Positions 6,676-64,000 of a stretch of 64,000 nucleotides of DNA are shown here, in pieces. The notes below the pieces were generated by a model. The model worked only from the letters and a program-made list of their open reading frames with translations, had not been told where the DNA came from and did not search any database. The stretch lies in the NCBI GenBank assembly GCA_037127255.1, contig JBANSL010000010.1, forward strand, positions 32,485,120-32,549,119, given 5' to 3'. Numbering within the stretch: position 1 is the first letter of the stretch; every line of letters begins with the position of its first letter. Source of the stretch: Persicaria tinctoria. Its lineage: Eukaryota; Streptophyta; Magnoliopsida; Caryophyllales; Polygonaceae. A program made the translations under genes and the position numbers.

Positions 6676-6745
6676 AGTCTATTAGCTCAATTGGTAGAAC
6701 GTTGTGTTTGCACACAAAGATGTGAGTTCGACTCTCACATAGGCT
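6676..6745 (+). other. tRNA-like sequence, left arm
   Basis: The acceptor halves AGTCTAT and ATAGGCT pair along all seven positions with one wobble. A D-arm-like GCTCAATTGGTAGAAC and a T-arm GTGAGTTCGACTCTCAC are present. The anticodon arm is TTGTG-TTTGCA-CACAA, with only six loop bases instead of seven. It is probably a tRNA-derived repeat rather than a working tRNA. Confidence 0.5.
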
Positions 6746-6794
6746 AATACGGAGTATGCGTTCATATCTTTATGGACTTATACGATTGAACATG

Positions 6795-21469: not shown

Positions 21470-22870
21470 CTAGTTGTGCAAAAATAAAGTATTGATGAGC
21501 AAAAATAAGAGCATGTTGTGCAATATGTTATTAAGAAAGTATGAAATTATATTGAGAGAAAATCAGAGTCTCGATTGTTGTGCAAAAATAACCTATAGTT
21601 GAGCAAAAATAAGATGATTTTGAGCAAAATTTCATCAATCCCCCATTGGTGTGCAATTATTGTCTATTGATGAGCAAAAATAAGATCATGTTGTGCAATA
21701 ATCTATTTAAAAAGTATAAAATTATATTTACAAAAAGTAAGATCATGTTGAGACACAATTTCACAAGTCTCAAATGTTGTACAAAAATAAAGTATTGATG
21801 AGCAAAAATAAGAGCATGTTGTGCAATAATTTATTGAGAAAATATGAAATTATATTGAGAGAAAATAAGATCATGTTGTGCAAAAATAACCTATATTTGA
21901 GCAAAAATAAGATGATGTTGAGCAAAATTTCACCAATCCCCCATGTTGTGCAATTATTGTCTATTGATGAGCAAAAATAAGACCATGTTGTACAATAATC
22001 TATTAAAAAAGTATAAAATTATATTTACAAAAAGTAAGATCATGTTGAGACACGATTTCATAAGTCTTGAATGTTGTGCAAAAATAAAGTATTGATGAGC
22101 AAAAATAAGAGCATGTTGTGCAATAATTTATTGAGAAAATATGAAATTATATTGAGAGAAAATATGACCATGTTGTGCAAAAATAACCTATAGTTGAGCA
22201 AAAATAAGATGATGTTAGCAAAATTTCACCAATCCCCCATGTTGTGCAATTATTGTCTATTGATGAGCAAAAATAAGACCATGTTGTGCAATAATCTATT
22301 AAAAAAGTATAAAATTATATTTACAAAAAGTAAGATCACGTTGAGACACAATTTCACAAGTCTCAAATGTTGTGCAAAAATAAAGTATTAATGAGCAAAA
22401 ATAAGAGCATGTTGTGCAATAATTTATTGAGAAAGTATGAAATTATATTGAGAGAAAAAAAAAATCATATTGAGAACAAATTCTCAAGTCTCGATTGCTG
22501 TGCAAAAATAACCTATTGTTGAGCAAAAATAAGATGATGTTGAGCAAAATTTCACCAATCCCTCCATGCTGTGCAATTTTACTCTATTGATGAGCAAAAA
22601 TAAGACCGTGTTGTGCAATAATCTATTAAAAAAGTATAAAATTATATTTACAAAAAATAAGATCATGTTGAGACACAATTTCAAAAGTCTCGATTGTTGT
22701 GCAAAAATAAAGAATTGTTGAGCAAAAATAAGAGCATGTTTAGCAAAAAATCCATTAATTCCCCATGTTCTACAATCATAGTTTATTGAGCACAATTTCA
22801 AAACTCTTCGATTGTTGTGCAAATATAATCTATTATTGAACAAAAATAAGACAATGTTGTGCAACATAAC
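21470..22870 (+). repeat. Tandem array, period about 300 bp
   Basis: The phrase GAGCAAAAATAAGAGCATGT starts at 21497, 21800, 22097, 22393 and 22720, giving about four and a half units. Each unit is itself made of shorter TTGTGCAAAAATAA and GAGCAAAAATAAGA sub-repeats. Unit ends also share TTCACCAATCCCCCATG. No protein is encoded. Confidence 0.9.
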
Positions 22871-22879
22871 ACTTCAAAA

Positions 22880-23215
22880 TAGAAAAATACAAGGCTAGTG
22901 TCACCACTACTTGTAACTAATATCAATGTCAGCACTACTTTGAGACTTACCACCTAGTGTCACCACATAAACTTCAATAACAGAAAACGTCACCACATAC
23001 ACTTCAATATCAGAAAACACAAGGCTAGTGTCACCACTACTTGTAACTAATATTAGTGTCAGCACTACTTTGGGGCTTAACCACATAGTGTCACCACATA
23101 CACTTCAAAATAAATAAATAAAAAGCTAGTGTCACCACTACTTGTAACTAATATTAGTGTCAGCACTACTTTGGGCCTTAATCACCTAGTGTCACCACAT
23201 ACACTTCAAAATCAA
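22880..23215 (+). repeat. Tandem array with AGTGTCACCAC motif
   Basis: The units begin GCTAGTGTCACCACTACTTG and include TAGTGTCAGCACTACTTTG and CACCACATACACTTCAA. There are about three units of 105-150 bp. Related AGTGTCAGCACTAAT pieces also lie at 20955-21050 and 21415-21460. Confidence 0.8.
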
Positions 23216-23323
23216 AAAACACATTCATCTAGTGTACAAAACCAATTCAAGAAAAAATCACAATTCAAACACTAAAAAATAAAATTCAAACTAAAATTGC
23301 ACATTTTAATCACAATTCAATTT

Positions 23324-23392
23324 GCCTACATGGGATTCGAACCCACATCTTTGTGCATGAGCACAATGCTCTCCCATTTGAGCTAATAGGCT
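23324..23392 (-). other. tRNA-like sequence, third copy
   Basis: On the minus strand: AGCCTATTAGCTCAAATGGG, an anticodon-arm-like TTGTGCTCATGCACAA, AAGATG, then a T-arm GTGGGTTCGAATCCCAT and GTAGGC, which pairs with the 5' GCCTAT. It belongs to the same family as the arms at 6676 and 8062. A T-arm-only relative lies near 21173 (GCGGGATTTGAACCCGC on the plus strand). Confidence 0.5.
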
Positions 23393-44093: not shown

Positions 44094-46885
44094 GGTCACA
44101 ATGCGAAAATTTGGGAGGTGTCAACCACGGTTGTACCACCACTCAAGAGCGTCCTTGCGGACAAGAGTTTGGAACTCAAGGTCAGAACTCCAAGGGGAAG
44201 AGAAGGAAACCAAGGCCAGGTGAGCAAGACGATCGGCAACCCTGTTAGCTTCCCTGAAGACGTGGGAAACGGAGATTGTCTCAAAGGAACTGAGCAGAAG
44301 AAGAGCATCCAAAATAAGCATGTCGATTTCCCCGGGCATCTGCCATGCTCCCTTGATTGCATTGACGATTGCGAGACAATCGCCCTCCACAACAATTCTT
44401 CGAACCCCCCTCTTCTGAGCTTCCATCAGCCCGAGCCGTAATCCAACCGCTTCGGCTTGTAATGCTGACACCTTCCCGCACCTTTTGGTTTCGCAAGCGA
44501 TCAATCTTCCTTTGTCATCTCTAATAAGGAAACCTATAGAAGCGCAACCAAAAGAGATTTTAGCACCATCAAAATTGAGCTTTTAACTACCTTCATCGGG
44601 TATGTGCCATCTAATGACTTTTCTTTGGCGGGGGTTATTCTTTGGTTTGAGTGTTCTTGTGATTACATCTTCTTCATCTAGGTTGTCTTGTTTGGATGTT
44701 TTTCAGTTTTTCATGTGGTGATGGATTGTTTCTATCACTTCACCTATTGTTCTTATGCTTTGGTTTTCAAAAATGATTTTATTTCTCGCAATACTCCACC
44801 AACAGAAAGATAGAGTAGCCTTTTGTTCAGAGTCAAGTTGTCGGAAAAGTTCGCTGGTGATAATCTTTATACTTTTATTACTTTTGTCAGTAGATATGAC
44901 CAATCGCTCAATATTCTTGTCTAGTGAGCATATCATTCTTAATGTTGTTGGACATTCCTTGAATTTGGTAAATAAAGAGCGGCCATCTAGGATTCAAACC
45001 GGAATCCTAGAGCGGTCATTCTTTTGTCAGTACTACCCGTAAGTCCTTTCCGGTTGAGTCATTCCGGAATGGTTGTTGTTGGACATTCCATCAAAAGATG
45101 AATAACGTCTTTCCTTCATGGAGTTACAAAGGGTACAATTTATGGGAGTGTGTAAACCTTTGTTTCTTATTCTTGTTTTGGTCGAGAGTCCATCTAGCGC
45201 TATTTTCCATAGGAAGTTTTTCACCTTGGGCAGACAATCAATTTTCCAAATCCCATTGAAGAGGTCTATTTTGTTTCCATTGGAGTTCGTGATAAAATCT
45301 AGCACGCTAGAAGTAGTGAACCAACCATTTGGGTTTGGTTTCCAATATAGTCTATCCTCAAATTCATGCGATGGAAGAGGGATATTAGTAATTGTTTCTA
45401 TAATATCTGCTGGCAGCACTCCTCGTAGCTTATCCACGTCCCAAACAAGATCTTGTCAAACAAGATCTTGTTTGACAGTAAGTAGTTTTCAACCTTTTCT
45501 TGGTCATCAATGCTCAAAGTCAGTTGATGGTCCTCAAGCTTTCTCTCGTCATTTAGCCATTTGTCCTTCCAAAACTGTATCGTTTTCCCGTTTTCAATCT
45601 TTTAGATGAGACCTGAGAAGAATTCGTCTTTTAATTTAATTAATTTGGCCCATTGCCACGATAAGTTTTTCTTCTTCTTATAGTCCCATATCTGGTCATT
45701 TTTTTAAGTATTTTTCTCTCGCTATCCTAACCCAATGGTTATGGGGTTCTGCAAGAATCTTCTATAAGAGTTTCATTTGAAGGGCTTTGTTCATGTCCTT
45801 TGTTTTATGGAGTCCCAACCCTCCTAATTTTTTCGATTTGCAGATTTTGTCCCATCCTATTAATGGTTTGTAACTGGAGTCCTTGTTCCAAAAAAGCATC
45901 TGTTTAGTTTATCTAAGCCATTATGGACATTCGTCGGGAGCATGAAGTTTTGCATGACATATCTTGGTTTGGCTGGTAGGTTCGCTTTTATAAGAACTAT
46001 TCTACCCTGCTGGGATAACGTATTTGCTTTCCGTTTTGTTACTTGCATTTTCGTTTTTCCTATTACGTCTTCAAAGGTTTCTTTGTTCATCATACCATTA
46101 ATGATAGGGCAATCTAGATATTTGTCCATAGCCACTTGGTTTCCTATAAGGAGAATGCTTTGGATCCTTGCCTTTGGTTGTAAGAAACCCTTTTTGTTAC
46201 TTGGAACGCAAATTTATGAAAATTCACCTTTTGTCCCGAAATGAGACAACCATTCGTCAATTTTTTTTAAACTTTTGTACACGATTCCTGGGTTGCTTTA
46301 GCAAAGATCATAATGTCATATGCGAAAGATAGGAATGAGATTTGTGTTCCGTTTGGGGTCATCTTAAAGCCTATCGAGTTTGTTGTTTCATTGCACTGTT
46401 TCTGTAGTTTTATTGCTAGGATTTCCGCTCCTAATATGAAAAGGTAGGGGAAAATTGGGTCACCTTGCCTTAGTCCTCTTTGTGGTCGAAAGGTCACAGT
46501 GAGTTCATCATTGACTAACATAGAGAAAGAAACAGTTTGGATGCATTCTTTAATCCAACCCAAGAATTTTCCAGAAAAACCGAATTTTTCCATGACCGCT
46601 AGCAGAAAGCTCTAGTCCACTCTGTCATGGGCTTTTTCCATATCAAGGTTTATTGCGATCCATCCTTGGCTTCCTATCCTTGTTCTAAAAGAGTGAAAAA
46701 TTTCGTGAGCTATCAGAACATTTTCTTGAATAACTCGATCAGTAACGAACGCTCCTCTTCAAGGGTGAATAATTTTCGCAAAAATTATTTTAATTCTTTC
46801 TGCAAGTATTTTTGCAATCCCTTTATAAATAGGGGAACACAAGCTAATTGGTCTATAATTATTCGTTATTGATGGATTATCGTAT
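44094..46885 (-). mobile_element. LINE (L1, RNase H type), 5'-truncated
   Basis: On the minus strand it begins in the reverse transcriptase at NNYRPISLCSPIYKGIAKIL. It continues through GFSGKFLGWIKECIQ, RGLRQGDPIFPYLFILGAE and the active-site region FAYDIMIFA. The connection domain follows (ANTLSQQGRIVLIKANLP), then the zinc-binding region (RLYWKPNPNGWFTTSS, LPKVKNFLWKIALDGLSTK), and an RNase H domain (SALQAEAVGLRLGLMEA; IVVEGDCLAIVNAI; SHVFREANRVADRLAHL). It ends near an A7 tail (T run at 44087-44093). The invariant DD of the RT motif is YD here, and several frame breaks occur, so it is dead. Confidence 0.88.
45454..45477. repeat. 24-bp perfect palindrome
   Basis: TGTCAAACAAGA is followed immediately by its reverse complement, with no spacer. 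A second half copy CAAACAAGATCTTGT lies just to the left, so the palindrome probably arose by a local duplication inside the LINE. Confidence 0.9.
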
Positions 46886-47023
46886 TTGATGGATTATCGC
46901 ATTTTGAGATTAAATGGAAAGGATTGCATATTTACATTTTAGGACCATTTATTTATTTTTCTTTTTTCTCGCTTTCCCAGCCTCTCTCTTCAGTTATCGT
47001 TAGTTCGCACGAAGGTACAGAAG

Positions 47024-49171
47024 ATGGGTGTAGGAGGAGAAGAGCTTCTTCCTCCTCAGCAAGCTGCCTCTTCCCAAATCGACGCTCAGCCACCACTGTC
47101 ACCGCCACTACGGCGTTCTGCCAAATTCGATCCCAGTCGAAGTATTGTCTTTCTCTCTCATGCTTTTGATCCCGTCGTTGGATAATTCGTTCGTTCCCTT
47201 TTCCGCTAAAAAAACTAGGGTTTTCGATCACCAGGATCTTGATTGGTTAGTTAATTGCATACACGATGTGAAATTCGTTTGGCGGGGTTGATTTTCTGGT
47301 CATTTAGAACCCTGGGGCTTGAAATTGTGGAATGAATCTCTGTTTTGGTTTAGTTTTGCGCTTAATCAAAGTTCAGACTCCTCTGATGCCCTAAAGCTGA
47401 AATGTTTTTCTCTTGTTTAGGTTTACTGTTGATCAAATGACGGTATCTTATGATTTCCATCGAAATCGGTCTTCCTTTAACTCGACACGTTTGGCCTTCA
47501 GCTGTCTCGCTTCCAAGTTCCAACCCCTAGAAAAAAATTGGAATAACTGTTTTCTTTATTTTACATTGTTTACTTGACTTCTCGTGTTTCTTTGCTTGAT
47601 TTGTGAATGTTACATTTGTCCGACCTCCTAATCATTTATCCATATGAAGAAAAAAGAGAAGTGTTATTTGCATTTTCTTGACCCTATTTTTGGGTAATTT
47701 TTTTTGTAAAAATGCCTATGACCAGTATCTTGGAGATTTCCGACCATGAGAGTTTTCGTAATTCTACTTTCATGATTGCATACTCACTCCATCAGTTGTA
47801 AAATTCACACTTGTTGAACATTGGGATTACAGTGATTGGCATCATCAGAAGGAAAGCCCTGATAAAAGACTTAGCAGCTGTTTACCATGCCGAGTGCCTA
47901 GCCTATTGCCAGGAGCTTCTTGAGCTTCAGACTAAATGGGAAGAGGTCAGATTTTAATTTTGACATCTTATTGTCATTTCAAGAAGTTGCTTTATTGTTC
48001 AGCGAATTTGATTTCACATCCAAATTTCATGTTGCCTTGTATAAGCCAATTCGCTGGGGGTAGTCATTTGCTGTGAAGCTATCTGTTGTCAGCGGAATTC
48101 AAGTTTTCGAACCATTGTGTAATCAATCATACTGTGCAACTTTAATCTTTATTTATTTTCCTTACGATATGCACTTTGAGATTTTCGCTATTAGTTTTAT
48201 TCATTTATGGCTTAAGCATATATGAAATCAGTAATTTCTGCAGAGTTCACAATCTCTCCTATTCGAACCCTTAACCATATGGGACTGATTTGTAGAATAT
48301 ACGCTGCCTTAGATCCAAACCTGTAATTTAAACTCTTTTGTGTTCTTCAACTGCAGATTGGTGGCTTTTATTTTCAATTGCACCCTTATGTGTTATGAAA
48401 TACGTATCAAATATGAACTTATGATTTTGATCATTTCTCAACTTTAAGGTATTTAAAGTCTACCAACTGGAGCTTGCTCCGAGCCTCCCACCTTACCCAA
48501 CATACCACACCATAAAGGGTTTAGCAAGTATCCAAAACGCCTTAGGTCTTGTTTCTTCACTATCTGGGACCATTTGGTTAATTCCTGTATTGTTCAGCAG
48601 CAGCTATTAGCCTTTGGTGGGTTGGCGCTCTTGGTGGTAATACCGCGACATGTATTAGGACCCTGAGAATCAATACCCCTCTGTGGTTGATTCATCGTCT
48701 CTAATGTCCAGTGCTGTTGTCTCCATGTTGTCACCCAAAAAGTTAATGATTTAATGGTATCCAGTTTCACTGCACACATCAGTATCATGTCTTTCAATAA
48801 AATTGAGAGATCTGAAAACTTTCCGCTTATGAGGTTGATGAAAGGAAGTTTTTTTTTATATGGTAGTGTTAAGGTGTTCTTATAGGCATATCATAGCAGA
48901 ATCATTTCCTCGTTCATAAGTTTTGGCTCGGTCGATTGATTTTTCTTTGGCTACTTTACCTTTTCTGTTTGATTTGATGGATTATTGTATTGTTAACTAT
49001 ATTAGATTCATTTATTCAAACACAACTGAGCTCATTGTTAAATCATGTTTTCAAGTTTGTTCTAAATCCCTCCTCGTCCTTGAACTTGCACAGACATACT
49101 CTCATGTCAATCGGCCTGAAGATGCGAGAAAGGATACAACAAGACCAACGAAACGCGTGAAGAAAGCTTGA
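47024..49171 (+). CDS. Small basic-tailed protein, 102 aa, unknown function
   Basis: Three exons with good splice sites: 47024-47141, 47833-47945 and 49094-49171. The N-terminus is Gln/Pro-rich (MGVGGEELLPPQQAASSQ). The first junction creates an in-frame Met in SRMIGIIRRKALIKDLAA. The middle, YHAECLAYCQELLELQTKW, is a strongly predicted amphipathic helix with two Cys. The C-terminus is basic and looks like a nuclear signal (RPTKRVKKA). No membrane segment or known domain is visible. Splicing joins frames that are otherwise short, and the protein-like helix supports a real gene. It looks like an uncharacterised plant family, but I cannot name it. The large second intron (1148 bases) holds nothing recognisable. 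Confidence 0.7.
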
Positions 49172-49870
49172 CATCACCACACTCATTGTCATCCATTTCT
49201 GATGAACGGACTAGGTGCAATCCTCACCTTGGCCGTGTTGTCTGTATAGTTCTGGTTCAGACGCCAGAAATTGGACTCAGTGTATTGTTATTGCTAATGG
49301 ACCGTTGTATTAGTCGTCTGACACTTTCTTCTACGTCGTATAGATCTTCCCTTACCTTAGAATACCGATTTGACGATTTCATATGTAATTTGGTGTCATT
49401 TTTCATACTAATGATCTTCTCCAGGGTTCGCTTGACCCCCCATAGCCATTGCCTCCTGCAAATACCAACGACCATCGTTTTAGTTCAAAACGACCTTATT
49501 TTGATCCAAAAGGTGCTATTGTATTGTCTGTTTTCTGTTGGGTGCCTTCATCTGAGTTGACCCAATCAGCTTCCGCCAAGTGGCACGCAGGGTAACCGTA
49601 AAACGGAATCCGATGGCCGAGATTCACCATCTGAGATTTCTACGGGCGAAGCGCACGATGCAAAGGTCAAGATTTTTGAAAAAACGTTTTACTTTTGGAT
49701 TGTTTGGTATATTCTCGCCTAATTCCAGCCGTCCGATCTTCGAAATCCAACGGCCGTACTTCCTCCTCCGCTGGCTTCATTGAAATCGCACTCACTTCAG
49801 TCATCTCCTCTTCCTTCGCTTCCTCTCTGTTGCATCGCAGACACTCGTTTTGCTCTCCCCACGCCTATCA
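49172..49870. other. Spacer and DiT1 leader
   Basis: Holds the 3' UTR of the small gene and, from about 49560, promoter and leader sequence for DiT1, ending in a CT-rich stretch (49800-49860). No other gene seen. Confidence 0.5.
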
Positions 49871-52847
49871 ATGGCGTCCATTGCTCTCACCTCCTCTTTC
49901 TCTCTTCCCCACAGATCCCTCCCTACGCTCAAACCTCGCTCTCTCAAGTCTCGATCCTTCATTTCCCGCCTCCCTTCACGATCTACTATCCGCAATTCCT
50001 CCATTACCACCAACAATCTCTTCCTATCCCTTCCCTCCCAATTCTCTCTCTCCTCCACCTCGAAATCCGATTTCAGACCGCGAGCATCTGCGGCCGCGGC
50101 TACACCTGCCCCGGCGGCTCCGCCGGCGCAGCCATGGCAGGGCGCCGCTATCAAGCCGCTGATAGCGTCGATAGCGACTGGAGTGATCCTCTGGTTCGTT
50201 CCAACGCCGGCTGGGGTTTCCAGGAACGCGTGGCAGCTGCTTGCGATCTTCCTCGCCACCATCGTTGGCATCATCACCCAGCCGCTCCCGCTCGGCGCCG
50301 TCGCGCTCATGGGACTCGGTGCCTCCGTCCTCACTAAAACCCTAACTTTCGCCGCCGCTTTCTCGGCCTTCGGCGACCCGATCCCGTGGCTGATTGCTCT
50401 CGCTTTCTTCTTTGCTAGAGGATTCATCAAGACTGGCCTCGGGAACCGAATTGCCTATCAGTTCGTTCGATTGTTTGGCAGCTCTACGCTAGGGTTAGGT
50501 TACAGCTTAGTTTTCAGCGAAGCGCTGTTGGCACCTGCGATTCCTTCGGTCTCCGCTAGGGCTGGCGGGATCTTCCTTCCATTGGTGAAGTCTCTTTGCG
50601 TTGCTTGTGGAAGCAATGTTGGCGATGGGACAGAGCGGAAGCTAGGTTCGTGGTTGATGCTTACTTGTTTCCAGACCTCTGTGATTTCGAGCTCTATGTT
50701 CTTGACTGCCATGGCTGCTAATCCACTGAGCGCCACTCTGACGTTCAACACTATCCAGCAGACGATTGGGTGGACGGATTGGGCAAAGGCGGCGATTGTG
50801 CCTGGATTGGTGTCTTTGCTTGTGGTTCCGATGTTGTTGTATGTGATTTATCCGCCCACTGTGAAGAGTAGTCCTGATGCGCCTAGGCTTGCAAAGGAGA
50901 AGCTAGAGTTGATGGGGCCAATGAGCAAGAATGAGATTATCATGGCTGGAACACTGCTACTCACGGTATTTCCTTCGAATGCTTATTTTTGTTACAACTT
51001 GTCCATAATTTGAAAGATCTTCTTTATCCGTTTATGATTCAAATCTTTATCTGTTTATGAGTGACCTCATTTTCTTAAGAAACTTTTTCTGCTTTTGAGC
51101 TTGATTCTTATCAAAATTGCTTCTGTATATACTATATACCTATCCGGTTTTATCTGCAATTTGGATGATTAATTCTGATAATGTTGTGATTGTATGGTAA
51201 CAATTCTAGTAGATCAGTAACTTGGAATGCCCTAATGGATGAAGATTTTTAGAGCAGGGTGGACTATATTTTGACTATGGGACCACTAGAGGTTGTGCAT
51301 TCGGGCTAATGGTGTGTAGAGTTGCGGGTGGTGTCCTTGCTTATTTTCTGCCTTCTTTCCTGCCTCTTTACTGAGTCTGATTCCCGTATATGAGACCAGC
51401 TTCCATGTAGTTCAAGTATCCTATTGTTCTGGGTCTATAGGAAACACTCTCTCGACTTGTTCGGGGAAAGAGTGCGTACATCCTGACCCCTCCATACCCT
51501 GCTTTTCCACGGGATATACTGCATAATGGGTTGTTGTTGTTCTTTACTTAGAGAAGAGATATGATCATATAAAAGTTAATATCATGATCTCACTGTTTAA
51601 CTGTGACTGCTTCCAATCCCTAGATCAATTCAGCATGTTTTCTTTTCAGCTTATTTATACTAAAACTTGGATTATTTTATTGTGGCTGAGGATATCTACG
51701 ATCTTTTGAGTCTTGACTGGTTTTCCTTGTTCATACTTTACAAGCAAATGTGAGGGAGACAGGATCATTTCTTGGGCAGTTGTGTGTTTCCTTTATGTAG
51801 TTCCAGACTTGTACATGTTAGTGGGGAAAGATTAATTTGTCTAATCTCCTCTTAATGGCATTATCAGGTGGGCTTGTGGATCTTTGGAAGTGCTTTGAAT
51901 GTTGATGCTGTTACAGCTGCTATTCTTGGATTATCTGTCCTCTTGATTACTGGTGTTGTAACCTGGAAAGAGTGCTTAGCCGAGTCAGTTGCATGGGACA
52001 CCCTTACCTGGTTTGCTGCACTCATTGCCATGGCTGGTTATCTCAACAAATATGGACTTATTTCCTGGTTCAGTGAAACTGTGGTTAAGGTGGGTTTTCT
52101 TCTCTGCTCACTGCAATTCCTGGTCTTATTTCCTCCGTCATTTATATTGCGTCTTCTGTGGTTTCTTTAATTTTACTGTGCTGTGTTAATGGTAGTTCGG
52201 ATGTTCATTCTTCTTATAAATCTCCCAAACCTAGTTGATATAATATAAAATGGTCTGCTGTGTCATTGAAGCTTGAGAATCTCTCCCTGGCTGGAAAAAA
52301 AGAAAGAACAAACAATTAGATTTTTGAAGTAGGACATCCTTGGTATTTGGAATATAACCGTGCTTTGCTACAAATATCTTTTGTGGGTGAAGGGGAAGAA
52401 ATAGGACATAGAGGGTTACCCAGTTCTATTTATTTCCATGTATCAATTTTACATCTGGTGACCGTGTCTTTCAACTGTTTGCAGTTTGTTGGAGGTCTAG
52501 GCCTTTCATGGCAACTATCCTTTGGGATTCTCGTTCTTCTCTACTTCTACTCTCACTACTTCTTCGCGAGTGGTGCTGCACACATTGGCGCCATGTTCAC
52601 AGCATTCTTATCAGTCGCCAGTGCCCTAGGAACCCCATCATACTTTGCAGCCATGGTGCTAGCCTTCCTATCCAATCTTATGGGTGGGCTCACTCACTAT
52701 GGTATTGGGTCAGCCCCAGTTTTCTATGGTGCCAATTATGTCCCCCTTGCTCAATGGTGGGGCTATGGCTTCATCATCTCGGTTGTTAACATCATCATCT
52801 GGCTCGGAGTCGGAGGGGTTTGGTGGAAAGCCATTGGATTGTGGTAA
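49871..52847 (+). CDS. DiT1: Plastid 2-oxoglutarate/malate translocator DiT1
   Basis: Inner-envelope antiporter that brings 2-oxoglutarate into plastids in exchange for malate, linking photorespiratory nitrogen recycling with GS/GOGAT. It belongs to the DASS (INDY-like) carrier family. Exons 49871-50965, 51868-52089 and 52485-52847 give 559 residues, with both introns in phase 0. Start chosen: ATG at 49871 in context TCAATGGCG. Residues 1 to about 75 are Ser/Arg-rich without acids, a chloroplast transit peptide. The mature part has 12 or more hydrophobic segments with family blocks NAWQLLAIFLATIVG, FFFARGFIKTGLGNRIAYQF and WKECLAESVAWDTLTW. Two helix-breaking SN motifs fit the paired substrate sites (GSNVGDGT near residue 248, SNLMGGLTHYG near 502). 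It ends WWKAIGLW. DiT1 fits better than DiT2 by its sequence blocks. Confidence 0.95.
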
Positions 52848-54908
52848 CTGTTAAAGAAGCTAAGCTGTCCTCGTAGAGAATTTGTCGATTCAGCAACCCT
52901 TTGATATACCATTCCTTATTACTCGTCATATTCCCGGATGGCCTTGGAAAGAAATTCTCCCATTTCATTCTTTTGCTCCATAAAGATTCATTAAATTTTG
53001 GGTGGAGCAACTTGGCATCATTCATTACGATTTACGAGTCTTGTAGCTCATTAGACACTTGTCAGAAACGATACGATGGATTTGTCGGATTCAGAGAAAG
53101 ACTGGAATTCGTCGCGGTTGTACGTATGGCTGCAAATGGTTAAAAATTAAATGCGTCTTCACAAACTGAGGGAGGTGCTTTCCAAACTCATCTTCTCTGG
53201 CTTTACTTTCACTGCCCTGTCCTTCTCAGTGAACAACCTTTGTGTGCATAATGAGTCCTCTTTTTGACGGGTTCTTTCTGAAATTGTCGTCTTTTCAACT
53301 TGCTATGATCTAATTGTTCTTGTTACTTGGTATAGGTGGTTGGTAGTTGACAGTTGACACCTAATCGGGCCTGCCTCTCTTGCATTTCTTAATTATTTTT
53401 GGGATAAATTAACACTGTCAAATTGAAAATATTATTTTTACATTTTATACTCTCATATTGACATTTTTTATAATAGAAATTTATAAATATATCATTATAA
53501 AGGGATATGCTTTAAAAAAAACATTTCAATATATAAATTTTATAATCCAAATAATCAAGTGATGCATAAGGATCCAGATTGGTTGGCAGCATGTCATAAA
53601 TTTCCTTATTTACTTACAACTTACAAGGTTTTATATATTTTTTTTTATAACAAAACAATAAATTGTTGGGTGGACTCTGGATGTGCTTCTGGTTATACAT
53701 GATGATTGGTGTTTCCACCGGCTTGTTGGTATTTCGGTTCTTCATTGTCTAGAGAATCGAATTTCTTTCCTTAATTAAAAAAAATATTTTCAGGATTAAA
53801 AAGGATTTTGACGGTTATTTATACATGTTGGGCAATTGCAAATGGAGAGAGTTTGCTTTACACAATTGCAATGGAGAGAGTACGAACCTTTTTATCGGAT
53901 AAAAAGAAGGAAAGAAGCAAAGCAAAACGTGTGGTGCTTGTTTACCATTCAAATTAAGGCATGGAATTGATGCAAACCAAATTAACTTTTTGTAAAAATG
54001 TTATCATTGTTGATTATGAGTCATCATTTTCGTTGGTTTGTCAAATACTCTTTAGGAGGAACAGAATCAAATTCTTTATCATTCTCTTTTGTTGTATCAA
54101 ATCTATAAGGGGAATAGAATCAACTGTATTGGAAATAAAATTCATGAAAAATCTAAACCTTTTTTTAGAGAAGTTGTAGATTTTATCCCCAAAGATTGAA
54201 ATATGCAGCGAATTTTGCATACTTCGAGTTCGAAAAAACAATTATCTCAAATGTTTATATCTTCTTTTGTAAACAAAACAGATAAGTGATAATTATTGCA
54301 AGCAATTGATGCAAAAACCAAAAGTGGATAGAATTTTAAAACTCCATGAAACCTCTATGTAAGAAACATACTTGTAACATATTCAAAAGTGTTCCAGCTT
54401 TTATGTTAGAAGGTTGATCTGAACGGACAATGAATTGACAAACTATCCAGGAGCAAATCCAGACGAAAATATAACTGTATTTGAGAAGCTCCCCAGGAAA
54501 TTTCTGTGGAGAAGTTGCAGAATCTGGCTTCTGGAGTTAGGCATTAATGTGGGCCTCTTGTTCATCCCTACCCCACATGAGGCTTAACCTTTCAAGTCAC
54601 TCATTTTCTGTCTAACCATTGCATTTACAAACAGTTTAAATGAATGGCATATGCACTCCCCCGTCCCCTTCATATTAATAGTAACGCCTATTTGCACTTG
54701 TACCCTACAAAAAAAGACTAAATACCAACTTCTTTTTTTTTTTTTTAAAGTCTCTCACAAGTGCATCAGTGCATGGCTTGGTGAGCCTTTTTTTTTCAAA
54801 ATTATATATAAAAACTCTTGCTCAATCATGCAGTGTTTTCATTTCCTTGATATTGGTGTAAGAGCTTCATTTTCTTGTGAGGGCTGAAAATAGTGGCTTT
54901 AATTTTAA
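52848..54908. other. Intergenic between DiT1 and DTX42
   Basis: Begins with the DiT1 3' UTR. The rest is AT-rich with short chance frames only. Confidence 0.5.
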
Positions 54909-55297
54909 AGAGTTGTTTAGTTATCAGTTCAATGACATAGAAAAACAGGTTAAGAGTTGTTTAGTTGTCAATTTGATGGCGGAGAAAAATGGGTTTCTAG
55001 ATCAAATGCTCAACTGTGGGGTGTTTTCATTTTCCAACCTTGTACTGATTTTGTGGTAAGAAATTGCAGATTCTCTAATTTTATGTTCTTCCTTCCTAAT
55101 TTGTGATTTGTGGGCTGTGATGGATGAAAATAGACTAATACTGAAGGATTTTGCAGGTACTGAATACCCATTTGCAATTTTTATCTTTTTTCCCTTGGTG
55201 ATCAAACTGACCACTAGTTTGCCAAAGTACACTGAGAATACCTTGGCTTAGGAGCTGCTCAGTTCGCGGTTCAATGGCGGAAAAAAATGGGTTTCTT
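54909..55297 (+). repeat. Triplicated DTX42 leader/first-exon unit
   Basis: Three diverged copies of a 40-46-bp unit: 54909-54949 (AGAGTTGTTTAGTTATCAG), 54953-54998 (with ATGGCGGAGAAAAATGGG) and 55251-55297 (with ATGGCGGAAAAAAATGGG, the used start). The middle copy keeps a start codon and would encode MAEKNGFL before running into a stop. It is a relic or alternative first exon. Confidence 0.7.
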
Positions 55298-57932
55298 GTT
55301 CCAGAGAAGAAGAGAAACATCCCACTCTTTATTCTCTTCAAGAATGCAAGGTACTCATCCTTTTTGACATTCTTACAACTACTAATTAGTTAACTGTTCC
55401 ATTTGCATTTTATGAAATTCAGTTCAGTTGTTGAGTGAAATTTAGTTCAAATTTCAAGAGCTTTTGTTGTATGCACAGGATGGTTTTTAAGTTAGACGAA
55501 CTCGGCCAAGAAATTGCACAGATTGCACTCCCTGCAGCTTTGGCTTTGACAGCTGATCCAATTGCATCTCTAGTAGACACAGCTTTCATAGGCCATATTG
55601 GTACAACATCTCTATTAGGCACAGCACTTTTGAGTAGACATAGTCATGTTTTCAAGTTCTTAAAAACATGTTTCGAAACAGGCCCGGTTGAGCTAGCTGC
55701 TGTTGGAGTCTCCATTGCCCTATTCAACCAGGTTTCAAGAATCGCAATCTTCCCTCTCGTGAGCATAACCACTTCTTTTGTTGCCGAGGAAGATGCTAGA
55801 GCTACATCAATGGAGACCCCTCAAGAAAAGCAAGAGAGCGACGACTTGGAGTTGGCTTCTAATTCTTTCAATAATGAATCCAAAGAGTTGATACCTCAAG
55901 CAGGTGATCACCTGATTTCCTTGCTGTTTTCTTTCAATTTAATCATGATTTTTCATGGCTCCTTTCTATATAGATCCAGGTGAGACCGTTCAGGAATCAA
56001 ACTCTGAGGAGCTTGACATAGACAAGCCCAAGCATCAGAAGAGGCACATTCCATCTGCTTCATCAGCCTTGATTATCGGCTCAGTTCTTGGCGTTCTCCA
56101 AGCCATTTTCCTTATTTTGCTGGCTAAACCATTGTTGAAGTATATGGGAATCAATTCTGTAAGTATCGGAAGCCGTTGTCAACTAGCATTGTTTACAACA
56201 AACAGACCCTAATCACCCTATCATGTTAAACATATATACCTTTTGATCTATAGGAGTCTCCTATGCTGCCATCAGCACAGCGGTATTTGACATTAAGATC
56301 ACTCGGCGCCCCTGCAGTTCTGCTATCATTGGCTATGCAAGGAGTTTTTCGCGGTTTCAAGGACACAAAAACTCCACTATATGCCACCAGTAAGCAATCA
56401 AAAATAAAGAAACTCTATTAATAAGTACAAATCTTGACTTGGATTTATGTTTTCCTTGGATTCTTGTCAATTATCCTCAATCCTATAGTAGCAGGAGATG
56501 CTACTAACATCATTCTCGACCCAATCTTCATTTTCACTTTTCGGATGGGAGTGAGTGGAGCTGCCATTGCCCATGTCATATCTCAGTAAGTCTACTGAAA
56601 AAATCGGTCATTTCATTCAAGTACCTTGTTTTCGGTTCCCTTGTTAGAAGAAATCCATGGTGATCAATTTTTAATCATAGGTACATCATTTCAGCTATCC
56701 TCTTTTGGAGATTGTTCCAACAAGTTGATCTATTACCACCACATTTCAAGGACTTGCAATTCGGCAGGTTCCTGAAAAACGGTGAGCCCTTAGATGTCGG
56801 TTTTTGCTTCTAGTACATGAAGTCACACTATAAAGATCATGACTTCATGTCCATTCAGGCTTTCTGCTGTTGATGAGAGTTGTGGCTGCGACGTTCTGTG
56901 TGACGCTGGCTGCATCATTGGCTGCCCATCAGGGCCCTACACCTATGGCTGCATTTCAAGTCTGCTTGCAAGTGTGGTTGACGACGTCCCTTCTAGCTGA
57001 TGGACTAGCTGTGGCCGGACAGGTGATGATAAGTAGTGCTTTTTATCAAGGCATGAAGAGTCATTCGACACATTGTTCACGATTTCTCTCTTTATTTACT
57101 TCAAATGCAGGCAATCCTTGCTAGTGCATTCGCTAATTCAGATTATGAGAAAGCAACATCCACTGCCTCTCGGGTACTTCAGGTCCGTATAACTGATCTC
57201 AAATGTTACTTGTTCAGCAGATGAGATCTTGACAGTCATAGTATTAACTATTAACTATGCAGCTTGGGTTCATTCTCGGATTGGTGCTCGCTTTCACGCT
57301 TGGTTTCGGACTACATTTTGGAGGCAAGTTGTTCACAAAGGATGATAACGTCCTACATCTCATCAGCATAGGCATTCCGGTATGACACTCAGAAACTTCA
57401 ATCGCCAAATCTGTATTTTTTTCCCTCTTTGAAATCACATAAATATTGGAATCTTTTGTTCTTCTATGCAGTTTGTCGCGCTGACTCAGCCTATCAACGC
57501 CTTGGCATTTGTCTTTGATGGCATCAACTTTGGAGCATCGGATTTTGCCTATTCCGGCTACTCCATGGTAACAGATTGAAAACTCAGCATCAAACACTTA
57601 TGCCATATAGCCATAACCTATCAAAGAATAAAATCATTGAGCCTCTATCTTGCGTTCCTCGATTTTAGGTGACGGTAGCCTTATTCAGCATCTTGTGCCT
57701 GTTGGGTCTTTCGTTGAGACACGGTTTCGTTGGTATTTGGTTTGCCTTGACCATATTCATGAGCCTCCGAGCATTTGCGGGATTCTGGAGGTGATTATAC
57801 ATCTATTTTGATGTATAGTATCTCCTTGCGCAAAAATCACATTCAAGGAAACACATTATAAATGGTTGTGTTTATTTTGTTGTGTGCAGGATAGGGACTG
57901 GTAGTGGACCTTGGAATTTCCTGAGAAGCTGA
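55274..57932 (+). CDS. DTX42: MATE citrate transporter, DTX42/FRD3 group
   Basis: Plasma-membrane MATE carrier of the plant citrate-efflux group (AtDTX42/MATE and FRD3), used in aluminium tolerance and iron movement. Thirteen exons, all GT-AG: 55274-55350, 55479-55600, 55682-55903, 55974-56158, 56254-56389, 56489-56585, 56681-56781, 56859-57022, 57111-57182, 57263-57379, 57472-57567, 57669-57790 and 57890-57932. They give 517 residues. Family blocks: LGQEIAQIALPAALALTADP, IASLVDTAFIGHIG, SRIAIFPLVSITTSFVAEED, SLAMQGVFRGFKDTKTP, MAAFQVCLQVWLTTSLLADG, FVFDGINFGASDFAY and GTGSGPWNFLRS. A long hydrophilic loop between membrane segments 2 and 3 (about residues 115-165) is typical of this group. 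Resemblance is closer to DTX42 than to FRD3. Intron 2 is 81 bases, stop-free and in frame. Confidence 0.94.
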
Positions 57933-58062
57933 TCAAAGTTGTAACCCAAAAGGCAATTTGAAGCTTAAGGAGTATCAGTAAAACAAATTCTAGTTTACAA
58001 ATAAGCAAATTCCTGTACGATTGTAATGTGCATAAAAGAAAATGGAAGTACATGGAAAGTTA

Positions 58063-58443
58063 GGGTTCGTTTGTTTCAATGTCGAAATTGAAATTCACAG
58101 GAAGTTACTTTATGAGAATTGAGTTCTCGGGAAGTCCAATAGATGGGAATTGTAAAAATGTGTTTGTGAAAATGTTTTTGGTTGATTTTTTATTTTATTT
58201 TAAAGGATTAAAATGGGAATTAGAAATTTCCAAATACAAAATGATGGAAGTTAAACTTACATAGGGGGACGATGTAAGTGAACTTCCTCCATTTTGGGAG
58301 AATTGAACTTTCCGAGAAGTTGAATTCCTGCGTTTTTTAATTTCAAAAATACCAACCAAACACATGAATTTCTGCTACTTCCTAGGAAGTTCTCTTGGGA
58401 AGTTCTACTTCCTGGGGTTTTGGGTTGCCAACCAAACGAGCTC
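58063..58443. mobile_element. Tourist-like MITE in DTX42 3' flank
   Basis: The ends are GGGTTCGTTTGTTTCA and, in reverse, GAGCTCGTTTGGTTGG, with TTA on the left (58060-58062) and TCA on the right. The interior is rich in GGAAGTT and its complement. It starts about 130 bases after the DTX42 stop and may lie in its 3' UTR. Confidence 0.6.
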
Positions 58444-59037
58444 TCAGAAGTGGTTTTGAGCAAAGTACTGAAAATTTTCAATTCTGGATGCAAAATGTTT
58501 GTCCCATCCATTAAATCTCGAGTGATGGTAATCCAATCTGAAACAACCAGATCTGTGTCCGACGTAAAGATTAGTTACCGGCACCAAGGGGACGCCACCT
58601 CCAAGGCTCCACTCTCTGTTTCGGTGTTTTCTTTATTTATGTCCTAATATCATCTTCATTTCTAGATTTGCTCTAATTTTCCAATGAAGTGTGAATGTAG
58701 AATAATAGTAACATTCTGAATGCATTTGATTATGTCTTAATATCATCTCTATTTCTGATATAATTGTACGATGAACAAATTAGAAATATATTGATTGATT
58801 TGTTAATGGTAATAAGATCACTGGTTATTCCTGGAAGTACCATATTATTTGGGTGACCTAATTGAAAAACGATCAGAAGATACCGGGATAGGGTTTCTCA
58901 ATGCTTTATAAGTATGCTAAATGTGTTCTATCTTTATGAATAAGGTTGGGCTTCTTCAGCTATATATTATCATCTTTGTGCCTCTGAAATTTATGTTTTA
59001 TTATGTGCACATCGTGTTGTGTTTTATTTGTCACTGT
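58444..59037. other. AT-rich intergenic
   Basis: Nothing recognised apart from short chance frames. Confidence 0.45.
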
Positions 59038-60155
59038 GTAACACCCCATCTCAAATCGAATATAATATGAACATTCAGAGTGATTTATAAGTGATTCGAA
59101 TCCTAATTATACCACAAGAGCTCTTGTTTTCCAGATTCTAAGTGCGAACAATGAACCTGAGATGACTATGTGGCATAGGTTGGTGCCTCTTAAGATTCGG
59201 GGTCTATAAGATGATATAAGAGCCAAATTTGAGATCTGAGGTGTTCAAATAGTATGCTCGAGTAAGCGTCCCCCGAAGGGCACCCCATTGGGACTTGATG
59301 GAGTTGTTAGTTATAAGTAAGGGAGATTATAACCCCTCATCTCACAATATATATATATATATATAATAAAAATGTTCGGAGTGATTTATATCTGATTCAA
59401 GATCTACCCATGTCACAAGAACTTTTTCTTTTCATTGAAATGTTCACTTTCCAGACATGTCTTACAAAAATCTCACAGCATTTTGTAAGGGTTGTCTCTA
59501 CTCTTAATACTTGAAAGCCCTGTCAAGTTCTCTTTTTTTTCCTCTTGACGTGACATTATAGTTTTCTAAAGATAGTTTATTTCTTGTTATTTTGAAGTTT
59601 TGTAGGTATTTGATCTCCTAAAGATGCCTAAGAAAGAGGAAAATCTCTTGTCTCTCATAATGAGTACAATGAACCCGAGAGGGCTATGTGGCATGGGCTG
59701 ACGCCTCTTAAGATCCGGGGTCTATAAGATGGTATAAGAGTTGAATTTGGGTTCCGAGGTGCTCAGACAGTATGCTCGAATAAGCGTCTCCCGGAGGGCA
59801 GTTCCTTGGGACTCGATGGAGTTGTTAGTTATAAGTGGTGGAGGGATTATAACACCTCATCTCACAATATCCAACTTTAATAAAAAATGTTCGGAGTGAT
59901 TTAGATGTGATTCAAACTCTACCCAAGTCACAAAAGCTATTTCTTTTCATTGAAATGTTCACTTTGCAAACATGTCTTACAAAAATCTCATTGGCATTTG
60001 GTAAGGTTTGTCTATACTCTTAACACTTGAAAGGCCCGTCAAGTTCTCTTTTTTTCCCCTTGTCTATTTCTTGCTACTTTGAATGTTTGTAGGTATTTGA
60101 TCTCCTAAAAATGCCTAAGGAAAAGCAAAATCTCTTGTCTCTTATGGTGCAGTTA
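59038..60155 (+). repeat. Tandem duplication, unit about 500 bp
   Basis: Blocks repeat in the same order: ATGTGGCATAGGTTGGTGCC (59169) with ATGTGGCATGGGCTGACGCC (59687); TCGATGGAGTTGTTAGTTAT; CAAGTCACAAAAGC-type text; ATGTCTTACAAAAATCTCA (59457 and 59970); and TAGGTATTTGATCTCCTAAA (about 59604 and 60091). A partial third copy of the start (TGTAACACCCCATCTCAAAT) lies at 59038. No family is recognised. Confidence 0.8.
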
Positions 60156-60160
60156 TAGAA

Positions 60161-61578
60161 GTAGGTATTGACATGCCTATGCATGGTTTACAATATTCAA
60201 CTTTATAGATTTTTGGATTTATATTTTGGTGACACTTAACAAAGCTAAATGCATAAATGATTGTAAGCATCGTTGGTTGTGAGTCTTTCTTTCGACATGG
60301 AACTTGTGAATACGAAGGTTAAATAGCTTTTAAAAAACGTTCAGATATTGTAGTATAATTGGATTTGTTTTGTCGATGTCCTTGGGCGTTATTTCATATA
60401 ATGTTTGGGATGTGAAGAAGGACTTCTCTTCCAACTTTTGCACTACTTCAAAGATTAAGAACCTTTCACCCGAAGCAATGTCAAGAGCAGAAAAGGTAGT
60501 TGTGTCTACCACTGAAAAAGTGAGCAAATATGGAATTATAGGGTTAAATGTTGCAGTAAAATAGCTTGAAGGAATTGCGTTTCTAGTTGAGTGCGACTTC
60601 AAGATTGGGGCTGGAATGTTGGGATTTTTATTGCTATTGCTTTAATTTGCTGCGGGAATTATGAGGGTTTGAAAGTTTCCAAAACCTTAGTTTTTATGGT
60701 TATATTTCTTTTGGACATAGTATTCCATTTCCAACAGTAGTGGAAAATTTATATCATGTGACCCTTCTCGAAAAATCAACATACTTTAATGGCACTTTAG
60801 ATAGACAATACTACATATAACTTTGAACACATTTCTTTCCTCTTTGAATAGATTCATTAGGAATATTTGATCATGCCCATGTGAAAGATTTCCAAGGCAT
60901 GATAATATACTTTTTTTTTTCAGTTCTATGAAATGGTTTAAAGTGTGTTAATTTTTGGACAAGTCTAACATGATATAAATTTTCTATTATTGTTGGAAAT
61001 ATAATACTATGTCTAAAGGAAATATGACCAAAACTAAGGTTTTGGTAACTTGGAGACCCTCATAATACTAGTAGCAATAAAAATAAAAAAAAAAATCCCA
61101 ACAATCTAGTCCCAATCTTGAACTCGTGCCAATTTGCAGATGCATTTCTTTCAAACTTGCCGACCACAAGTTGAAACCCCACAATACCATCTTTGCTTAC
61201 TTTTTTTTGGTGGTAGACACAACTAGATTGTCTGCTCTAGGCATTGCATATGGTGGGAACTTCTTCATCTGTACAGAAATAGTCTCAAGAGTACGTGGAA
61301 GATAAGTCCTTTACATCAAGAACGAAATGAGAGATAATGACAACGGACCCCATCAAAACGATTCCAATTTTAAGACCAACCCAATTGAGTAGTTGGATGT
61401 TTATGGAAAGGGTCTTGACCTTCTCATTCATAGCTTCCATCTTAGAATCAGAACTCAAAAAAATAGCACTATCCAATCATTTATGCATTTGGCCTTGTCA
61501 ACAACCACCAAAATATAAATCCAAAAATATGTAAAGTTAGAATATGGTATTAAAGTCTGCATAAGCATGGCAATACCT
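60161..61578. repeat. Giant imperfect inverted repeat (foldback)
   Basis: The left arm 60161 to about 60815 pairs with the right arm about 60905 to 61578 over nearly the whole length. Matching blocks in order on the left and on the reverse of the right are: GGTATTGACATGCCTATGCA / GGTATTGCCATGCTTATGCA; TTTGGATTTATATTTTGGTG (identical); AAATGCATAAATGATTG (identical); AGTTGTGTCTACCAC (identical); TTCAAGATTGGG; TTATGAGGGT; CCAAAACCTTAGTTTT (identical); GACATAGTATT; and AAAATTTATATCATGT (identical). The spacer is under 100 bp. The arms carry gene-like frames, 60370-60564 on the plus strand and 61285-61476 on the minus strand, related to each other. No terminal duplication was found. Confidence 0.85.
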
Positions 61579-62345
61579 GATCTGTGTGATTGTCGATCGG
61601 GTCATTCTGGTCAAGTTCGGGTATGGCTATTACGAGTTCTGGGTAAAATGGGCCTCGGGTAGATTCGAGTTGACTTGAACTCGAGTTTGACCCGATTTCG
61701 GGTTTGTCAATTTTTTCTTTTTTAAATTAAAAAAATCATGATTTGGTAATTTTGCGATAATTTTAAAATTCTAATAGTAAAGAAGTGGTTCATAAGTTCT
61801 GGTGCTTGTAATTATATACTATATCTAATCTAAAATATTTGATTTTTTTTATTATTTCTCATAATTTTTAATAAAATTTAAAAATATATAAAATATCAAA
61901 ATTTTAAACAATTTTTTAAAAATAATTTCATGAAATTAGTAATAAGTATAGAATTGTTTTTAATATTTTTTTAGAGTTTTGTTCTTCTTAAAAAATGTGA
62001 TGAAAAATAAAAAATCAAATACTATCGATCACAGGGAGTATTACACAATACAAATAAATTAAGTTGATTTGAAAATAAAAGATCAAGTGATTGTAATTAT
62101 AAAATGTAATAAATTGGAATCTCCATAAAAAAAATTAATCATATATAATTATAAATCAATAGGGTCAATCGAGTCAACGGGTCAAAATTAGCGGGTCAAT
62201 CGAGTCACCGGGTCTAAACCCATACAACTTGGAAAATCACCGAGTTTTCGGGTTCGGGTCAGAAAATTTTCCGGGTTTTAACCCAAAATTTCTCGGGCAT
62301 TCGGGTCGGGTTCATTGGGTCAGGTCGAGTTTTTACAGGTCTAGC
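61579..62345. mobile_element. Probable DNA element inserted in Copia remnant
   Basis: Both flanks are rich in GGGTC and CGGGTT phrases (61590-61710 and 62160-62340) around an AT-rich core. The right end interrupts a Copia reading frame just after GKVIVKA. Ends and target duplication were not resolved. Confidence 0.35.
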
Positions 62346-62900
62346 TTTAACTATCACCTTACCATTTTTGGAAATAGTTCTAACACCATCAGTAAAGTTC
62401 AAATCACAACCTATTTCTTCTAATGTAGACTCAGACATGAGACTTCCCCTTAAACTTGGGACCCACCTGACATTAGTAAATATTCTAACAATGACATCAT
62501 CCATGAGCAAAGGAACATCTCCAATACCTTTACTTTTCAGAGAAGCATGATCACCCAACATAACATCACCACACACATATTCATTCAAATTCATAAAGAA
62601 ATGCTTAAGAGGTGTGGCATGCATTGTGCAACATGAATCTAACATCCATGTACTAGAAGCAAACAATTTAGTATTGTTTTTCTTTGCTAATTCTTCAGCT
62701 CTTTTCTTTTTCCTGCACTCCTTAACCTAGTGTTCAATATTACCACAATAATTGCCCTTTGAATTAGGGTCAGATTTCTCATGATTGGGTTTGTCTGACT
62801 TATCAGTTTTAAGACCTCGGCCAGTAAATCCCGCATGGGGCGTAGTCGCGTAGAAGGTTTTGATCTTTTTTGACAAGACAACATATGTGGAAGCATTTTT
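62346..62900 (-). mobile_element. Copia retrotransposon fragment (gag end, protease)
   Basis: On the minus strand a degenerate zinc knuckle (NYCGNIEH, then VKECRKKKRAEEL) is followed by the Copia protease region. This holds WMLDSCCTMHATPLKHFF (normally DSGCT), LGDHASLKSKGIGDV and VRWVPSLRGSL, then STLEEIGCDLNF. It is cut off on the left by the GGGTC-rich insert. The knuckle lacks its first Cys and has a stop, so it is inactive. Confidence 0.8.
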
Positions 62901-63540
62901 TACAAATTGGCACTAAAATTGGGTTTTCTTGAACGGTTTCCTTAGGGAAAAAAAATAATAACAAATGAAACCCGAAAAACAAAATTGATTCAACCAAGCA
63001 ACTAATCCGGGCAAAATTGCCTCAAATTAACATAACACGATTATTCCTAATACCAAACCGACGACGACGACGACAACAACAACAACAACAACAAAACTTA
63101 CCCAGCCAAGTCCGTGAACGAATCAAAGGGGAAGAAGATGTGAGAGATACAACTCAAGATATTCGATCACGAGGGAGGAAGACTAGCATTGAAGAGGAAC
63201 GATGAGCTTCCTGAAAGACAATTCAAGAGGCGACCACAGAAGAAGATATGGGGAAGGAAAAAGCGTTGGGTATGAACCCGGTCCAACTCTTTATTTTTTT
63301 TTCTAAGGACATTGTTCAAGAAAACCCTTGTAAAAAAAAATCCACGTAGGCGGTCTTGTCATCATTTTTGACTCGTAAGAAAACACATGGTAATATATTA
63401 CCACCACCCTAAAAGGTCGGGATAGTTTTATTACATTTGAAAATTGAGGATATATTTTTACCATGCCCCTAAAGGTGGGGATATTTTAATTAGTTTTACC
63501 TTCAAAAAAATTATACGTTGTTATAAAAAGCAGAGCACTT
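62901..63540. other. Spacer with trinucleotide repeat
   Basis: (ACG)n passing into (ACA)n at about 63058-63094, and otherwise unassigned sequence. Two similar phrases, CCACCCTAAAAGGTCGGGATA (about 63405) and TGCCCCTAAAGGTGGGGATA (about 63464), form a local repeat. Confidence 0.45.
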
Positions 63541-63561
63541 TTTAAAACATGAATGGCCAAA

Positions 63562-63695
63562 AAGACAAATTAGTATATTAAACGACCCCCTGAGGACAAA
63601 TTGGTATATTAAAAGCCTTTAGAGACAAATAGGTATATTAAAAGTGCTCTAATGGACAAATTGGTATATTAAAAGACTCTAGCTTACAAATAACC
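63562..63695 (+). repeat. GACAAATTGGTATATTAAAAG repeats
   Basis: Four diverged units at steps of about 30-40 bp, ending CTTACAAATAACCC. This layout resembles a MULE terminal repeat, but no partner end was found in the window. Confidence 0.6.
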
Positions 63696-64000
63696 CTTTT
63701 TACATAATTGGACTTCCTTTTCGTTTTATTTTTTTAATAAAATCATGTTAATATATTTGTATGATAATGAATTGGTTACATACTCATATAATCTTATTAA
63801 TTTGCTTATATAATCATCAAAAAAAAATTAAATTTGGTATATATTTCTATCAAATTATAAAACTATTGAATTTTTATCACTATTTGTCACTAATAATATA
63901 TATTATATACATTTTATTAAATAAAAACTTTATTACAATGGTTGTTTGTATAAATTGCACAAATTAAATTACCCCACAAAAATATGAGCTAGTATTTGTT

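Follow-up and report, generated by a model that had tools for sequence, protein, structure and literature searches.

Organization of the locus

We analysed a window of 64,000 nucleotides from the Persicaria tinctoria genome (C10:32485120-32549119 in a 1.68-Gb assembly). The locus described here has as its upstream neighbour a MATE gene (PF01554, E = 8e-6, one exon), whose exons end near 57.8 kb, and is followed by an apparent further gene from near 64.8 kb, both limits being judged by eye. It consists of exon remnants of TAP46-like genes, a large foldback and a retrotransposon fragment (Table 1). Aligned with its own reverse complement, the foldback (60163-61578) showed 69% identity (E = 1.6e-150; BLASTN, query 60000-61700 against the window). 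In a local alignment with cheap gaps, the left arm at 60163-60839 (677 bases) and the right arm at 60883-61578 (696 bases) were identical in 512 of 726 columns, gaps being scored as differences; a preliminary description of this DNA had likewise noted two inverted arms matching in order over their full length. In this alignment the spacer measured 43 bases; the innermost ungapped blocks lie 148 bases apart. Across a multiple alignment, the two arms carried the same base at 97/125 aligned positions in the intron, 274/392 in the exon and 106/150 in the 3' flank.

Table 1 Features of the foldback locus, with positions in the window
Feature	Position	Strand	Basis
Exon 3 remnant of the left (C15-type) TAP46-like gene	58837..58899	+	tblastn, 76% to C5 exon over 21 residues
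First tandem unit: exon 5 and 6 remnants with introns; exon 6 at 59609-59650	59143..59660	+	Direct repeat; exon 6 match; 78% to canonical TAP46 over 59438-59652
Second tandem unit: exon 5 and 6 remnants; exon 6 at 60096-60152; adjoins left arm	59661..60152	+	80% to first unit
Left arm: final intron, terminal exon 7 (broken; match at 60355-60684), 3' flank; C15-type lineage	60163..60839	+	
Centre: native 3' flank of left copy and probable join to right copy	60840..60932	.	C15 match; arm-to-arm alignment extends weakly to 60883
Right arm: final intron, terminal exon 7 (broken; 61464-61090), 3' flank; C5-type lineage	60933..61578	-	79% to C5 over 629 columns
GGGTC-rich sequence abutting the exon/intron edge of the right arm	61580..62340	.	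Sequence; arm homology ends here; C20 without 61706-62763
Retrotransposon polyprotein fragment (Pol_BBD domain)	62406..62648	-	PF22936, E = 1.9e-17, frame 62259-62726

The tandem duplication next to the left arm (59148-59658 against 59666-60145, 80% identity) had been taken for a separate event; the duplication itself stands, but its units hold what is left of exons 5 and 6 in the left copy, and it is not separate from the foldback. On the other side, the GGGTC-rich sequence is probably an insertion that separated the right copy from its upstream exons.

Elsewhere in the window, self-comparison revealed densely arrayed, overlapping direct repeats at 21473-23220, with up to 89% identity over more than 600 columns. 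The only Rfam matches at gathering thresholds were three tRNAs at 6676-6746 (+), 8061-8131 (-) and 23322-23392 (-), which also appeared as mutual repeats in the self-comparison. Just beyond the window end (~64.08-64.23 kb) lies an extended simple repeat whose translation is poly-Tyr, poly-Ile or poly-Leu depending on the frame.

A TAP46-like parent gene with an additional terminal exon

A search of the genome with the arms, which the preliminary description had proposed for finding a parent gene, led to TAP46-like copies on C15 and C5. In both, the single arm runs upstream into sequence matching the tandem units of the window, and the counterpart of the second unit is continuous with the arm. 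The C5 copy has six exons upstream of the arm-like sequence, with splice signals judged by eye. Once spliced, exons 1-6 matched the TAP42 family (PF04177; E = 1.4e-27; score 97.2 bits, cut-off 26), which places the parental gene in this family; the arms themselves, made of intron 6 and exon 7, fall outside the match. Each arm comprises the final intron and final exon of a TAP46-like gene, together with its 3' flank. We call the parent gene TAP46, which we take to be its name among the plant PP2A regulatory subunits. Two observations count against the explanation preferred below: the spliced C5 protein had no match among PDB chains at E <= 0.001, and a stretch of the normal TAP46 protein that presumably lies between exons 4 and 5 was not recognised in the C5 copy.

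Presumed canonical TAP46 genes were also found on C15 and C5, each matching profile positions 27-72 and 281-346 in the family search. They align with the tandem units, but in the arms the match stops after only ~70-80 bases from the outer end (60163-60231 and 61498-61579). The outer arm end reads AG followed by GTATTG, the boundary between exon 6 and its intron. The variant gene resembles canonical TAP46 from exon 1 through exon 6 and into the beginning of intron 6, and differs from it in a terminal exon 7 (142 codons in the C5 copy), which a search of the plant's own genome did not find at the canonical loci. In that genome, exon 7 gave 10 matches, confined to the five loci that carry arms (see below). 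Among 5.8 billion proteins it drew 32 candidates, none at E <= 0.001; in Pfam nothing was matched by the C5 version and one entry, below the cut-off, by the C15 version. The variant exon 7, for which no relative was found in these searches, carries two hydrophobic stretches as judged by eye. Literature queries on a TAP46 fusion gene or TAP46 gene structure brought up no such fusion in titles or abstract openings, among the matches listed, and a query on endogenous inverted repeats gave no result.

The C5 variant occupies C5:73422472-73429959, with all seven recognised exons open and, by eye, a LINE-like insertion before exon 5. The C15 variant, at C15:61085111-61086511, appears to be without most of exon 2 and without exons 3-4.

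Copies of the arms in the genome

Each arm gave 9 matches in the genome, at the same five loci, both counts being lower bounds. Three of these loci are foldbacks, on C10 (the window), C20 and C18; C15 and C5 carry single copies. In window numbering, matches to C20 cover most of the stretch 45.5-75 kb, generally at 95-99% identity (87.5% at 62764-63519 and 90% in a 59-column piece), so its foldback occupies the same site on a partner chromosome. The partner may be a homeologue or a haplotype; C5/C15 and C10/C20 behave as pairs. C20 is without 58868-60082, and so retains only the portion of the second tandem unit from 60083 onward, and without 61706-62763. Throughout window positions 45466-64000, where C20 was mostly 95-99% identical, several segments of at least 0.4 kb were missing or added, and the pair therefore differs by many insertions or deletions.

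C18 shares 58626-62787 with the window and otherwise only short pieces of at most 195 columns (window 40.0-83.9 kb compared with 29.9 kb of C18); the C18 foldback is thus a dispersed copy. The Pol_BBD fragment lies inside this common block, the C18 matches extending to 62787.

The foldback is present on C10, C20 and C18, and so is older than the split between C10 and C20. Divergence of aligned bases between these two was 1.56, 2.54, 1.20 and 2.09% in four flanking stretches and 3.56% in the foldback. Exon 7 was 96-97% identical between C10 and C20, and 91% (left) and 90% (right) between the window and C18.

Two lineages of arms in a tail-to-tail arrangement

The preliminary description regarded the arms as an inverted duplication of a gene fragment, a view that was not supported. 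A tree of 8 arm sequences separated C15 and the left arms from C5 and the right arms with a support of 100/100; the tree has no outgroup, and all 5 of its inner branches were at or above the program's support mark. A four-taxon comparison of the two arms with C15 and C5 had 67 informative sites; the split that joins left arm with C15 and right arm with C5 was favoured by 48 of them, the alternatives by 13 and 6. In the window, the left arm with its upstream unit was 76% identical to C15 and the right arm 79% identical to C5, compared with ~70% between the arms. As the left arm groups with C15 and the right arm with C5, the arms are two paralogues that were already distinct. Because the tree is without an outgroup, two scenarios agree with it: diverged copies were brought together, or an earlier tail-to-tail pair of whole genes gave rise to the single copies from its members. 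Under either scenario the gene duplication behind the arms is old. For the polarity and timing of the individual steps we depend on this single tree, which we count against the explanation preferred below.

The centre of the foldback supports a tail-to-tail joining. Sequence 60802-60915 recurs downstream of the C15 copy (79% over 118 columns) and is therefore the left copy's own 3' flank. The matches of the right copy to C5 start at 60952, apart from a 24-base piece that extends to 60933; since the C15 match ends at 60915, the join would lie at about 60916-60936. By eye, a short motif at 60922-60936 is similar to the flanking sequence of either parent, suggesting microhomology at the join.

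We also considered whether the single copies on C15 and C5 might be allelic or homeologous to one another, and rejected this: the variants are 75% identical over 916 columns, whereas the canonical TAP46 loci on C15 and C5 are 98% identical over 3143 and 2503 columns (a further piece, 79% over 701). Outside the gene, no match in the 50-kb surroundings of the variant copies was longer than about 300 columns. The variants lie ~1.58 Mb (C15) and ~1.60 Mb (C5) from canonical TAP46, at C15:59.51/61.09 Mb and C5:71.83/73.42 Mb, and the relative orientation is opposite.

Decay of the reading frames

The preliminary description reported a related open frame in each arm. The frame of exon 7 was recognisable in both, but broken in both: the matched stretch of the left arm contains one TGA, one TAG and one TAA, and the right arm one TGA and one TAG. 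Exon 7 was also interrupted in both C20 arms and in the left arm of C18, and was open in the C18 right arm, C15 and C5. The C18 right exon, an open frame of 143 codons, counts against the explanation preferred below. Between C15 and C5 the dN/dS of exon 7 was 0.77 (0.334/0.433), indicating constraint that is at most weak.

Predicted hairpin and pairing between the arms

RNA folding of 60140-61600 gave a single hairpin of -599.6 kcal/mol, with 525 arm-to-arm pairs and a longest uninterrupted helix of 33 bp; 14 other stretches of 1461 bases from the window folded to between -258 and -427 kcal/mol. The corresponding stretches of C20 and C18 folded to -601.8 and -548.0 kcal/mol. A transcript of the foldback is therefore predicted to form a long, mostly double-stranded hairpin, as the preliminary description expected when it proposed the folding.

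At <=2 mismatches, 52/658 21-mers of the left arm matched C15 and 11 matched C5; for the right arm, 58/629 matched C5 and 16 matched C15. The C18 right exon was nearer by the same measure (278/629 of the right arm and 41/658 of the left). Canonical TAP46 was matched by at most 4/658 and 2/629, presumably within the shared intron.

Mismatches between the arms were more often of the G-U than of the A-C type: 56 : 30 in the window (p = 0.007), 58 : 33 in C20 (p = 0.011) and 41 : 26 in C18 (p = 0.086), the three excesses being mutually dependent. Among the controls, C15 with C5 gave 52 : 52, C15 with the right arm 51 : 48, and the left arm with C5 55 : 40 (p = 0.151); from the two crossed controls, part of the raw excess comes from the left arm alone. 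The test on which we relied was a polarised count, with fractional counts over equally short reconstructions. On the foldback branches, transitions that preserve pairing exceeded those that break it by 79 : 57 (p = 0.071; left 41 : 27, right 38 : 30), compared with 41 : 53 on the control branches. Neither the window-folded pairs nor the homologous columns of the three foldbacks held a pair that had changed on both sides and still paired. Strand-biased mutation would yield an excess of the same sign. We consider the excess a weak hint, and no proof, of selection on the hairpin, and count it, with the raw excess in the window, against the explanation preferred below.

Two other tests of kept pairing were set aside. 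The first, on window-folded pairs, conditions on pairs kept in the window and leaves the direction of changes unpolarised; in it, C18 kept 27/51 one-sided changes (15.1 expected; 0/2000 shuffles) and C20 kept 10/25 (8.0 expected; 234/2000). The second, on homologous columns, dealt the changes without their direction and gave 28/80 for window-C18 (19.5 expected; 6/2000), 33/81 for C20-C18 (23.2 expected; 2/2000) and 10/36 for window-C20 (8.1 expected; 463/2000). Of the transitions alone, 28/41 were kept in window-C18 (p = 0.014), 33/47 in C20-C18 (p = 0.004) and 10/17 in window-C20 (p = 0.315), and these comparisons are not independent of each other.

Origin of the foldback and alternative explanations

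The foldback very probably represents two decayed TAP46-like pseudogenes lying tail to tail. They go back to a variant of TAP46 that carries, after exon 6, a terminal exon absent from the normal gene. Diverged paralogues of the C15 and C5 types would have been joined tail to tail through their 3' flanks, and the joined block would then have come to the C10/C20 site and to C18. Arm identity, gene parentage, the two lineages and the genomic copies are shown by the results above; we infer the end-joining and the order of these events. The block would have lost most of its upstream exons, the left copy gaining the tandem duplication of exons 5-6 and the right copy probably an insertion, after which decay would have followed. 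The foldback is old and of unremarkable appearance, a structure of a known kind, and most likely has no present function.

If a transcript did cross the foldback, it might form a mismatched duplex open to Dicer-like cleavage into siRNAs, by analogy with known plant inverted repeats, and the C5 and C15 copies would be the nearest genes outside foldbacks. A pair of inverted pseudogenes now in use as an siRNA locus, transcribed from the plus strand, kept able to pair and silencing the TAP46-like copies on C5 and C15, is nevertheless improbable. Such a locus would account for the raw G-U over A-C excess in the three foldbacks, set against 52 : 52 between C15 and C5, and for the near-matching 21-mers, and it has precedents (PMC2708354, PMC3203196, PMC13213937). 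Once polarised, however, the excess stood at 79 : 57 (p = 0.071); the crossed controls attribute part of it to the left arm, strand-biased mutation would have the same sign, and pairs changed on both sides yet kept were missing from the three foldbacks. The foldback has, moreover, diverged more between C10 and C20 than any of its four flanks. We would likewise give little credence to the particular form in which a stem transcribed from the plus strand was kept pairing by favoured G-U over A-C changes and its siRNAs act on the C5 and C15 copies that bear exon 7.

The preliminary description had favoured a recently arisen inverted duplication of a single gene fragment, that is, a proto-MIRNA or a new siRNA locus, and this too we regard as quite unlikely. 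The gene-derived arms, the long hairpin and the 21-mers that nearly match single-copy relatives (left arm with C15, right arm with C5) are what such an origin would produce. The arms of a young MIRNA would both trace to a single recent duplication of its target, but here they group with different paralogues, as two lineages and not as sisters. Nor is the structure young: almost 30% of sites differ between its arms and the arrangement is common to three loci, with exon 7 of the window and C18 at 90-91% identity and the C10/C20 flanks diverged by 1.2-2.5%. The Rfam search of the window at the gathering threshold was also without a microRNA match.

A non-autonomous foldback transposon, MITE or long-TIR MULE derivative, for which the dispersed copy on C18 might speak, is extremely unlikely and was rejected on copy number (five loci with either arm and three with foldbacks, as lower bounds, in place of many dispersed copies with the same ends), on the position of the C20 copy at the matching partner site, and on the arm ends, which coincide with an exon/intron boundary and, in C15 and C5, continue into upstream gene exons; by-eye inspection of the ends at 60163 and 61578 showed no target-site duplication. 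The earlier view of the arms as gene-derived and not a MITE is supported in this respect.

Comparison with known inverted repeats

The locus is a clean example of a spectacular foldback that amounts to two decayed paralogues side by side, and the combination of genome-wide copies with a tree separates the inverted duplication of one gene from the junction of two old paralogues. Were siRNAs to be found, a stem of ~70% identity would still feed the silencing pathway in nature; in tobacco, an engineered 200-bp hairpin with one substitution per four bases is described as inducing RNAi (PMC9263138).

Rearrangement has also set inverted paralogues near enough for a read-through hairpin RNA at VIM4-VIM2 of Arabidopsis Cvi-0 (PMC13213937). 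That pair is described as head-to-head with a near-perfect stem, and its siRNAs and their target have been shown, whereas the present pair is tail-to-tail and mismatched. The PAI1-PAI4 genes of Arabidopsis Ws (PMC3203196) share with our foldback the tail-to-tail arrangement of gene copies, from which read-through could give fold-back dsRNA. Transcripts, small RNAs and methylation are described for them; here both copies are truncated and their frames broken. Adjacent inverted pseudogene pairs in rice can yield hairpin siRNAs (PMC2708354), and our foldback has the same structure as given in that report: two paralogous pseudogenes on opposite strands within 2 kb, a stem longer than 100 bp and a loop shorter than 2 kb. 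The rice criteria also demand a hairpin small-RNA density above 0.04. The arms studied here are ~70% identical, and the two rice pairs are listed there with identity 83 and 96. The closest analogues of the foldback are these rice inverted pseudogene pairs together with Arabidopsis PAI1-PAI4.
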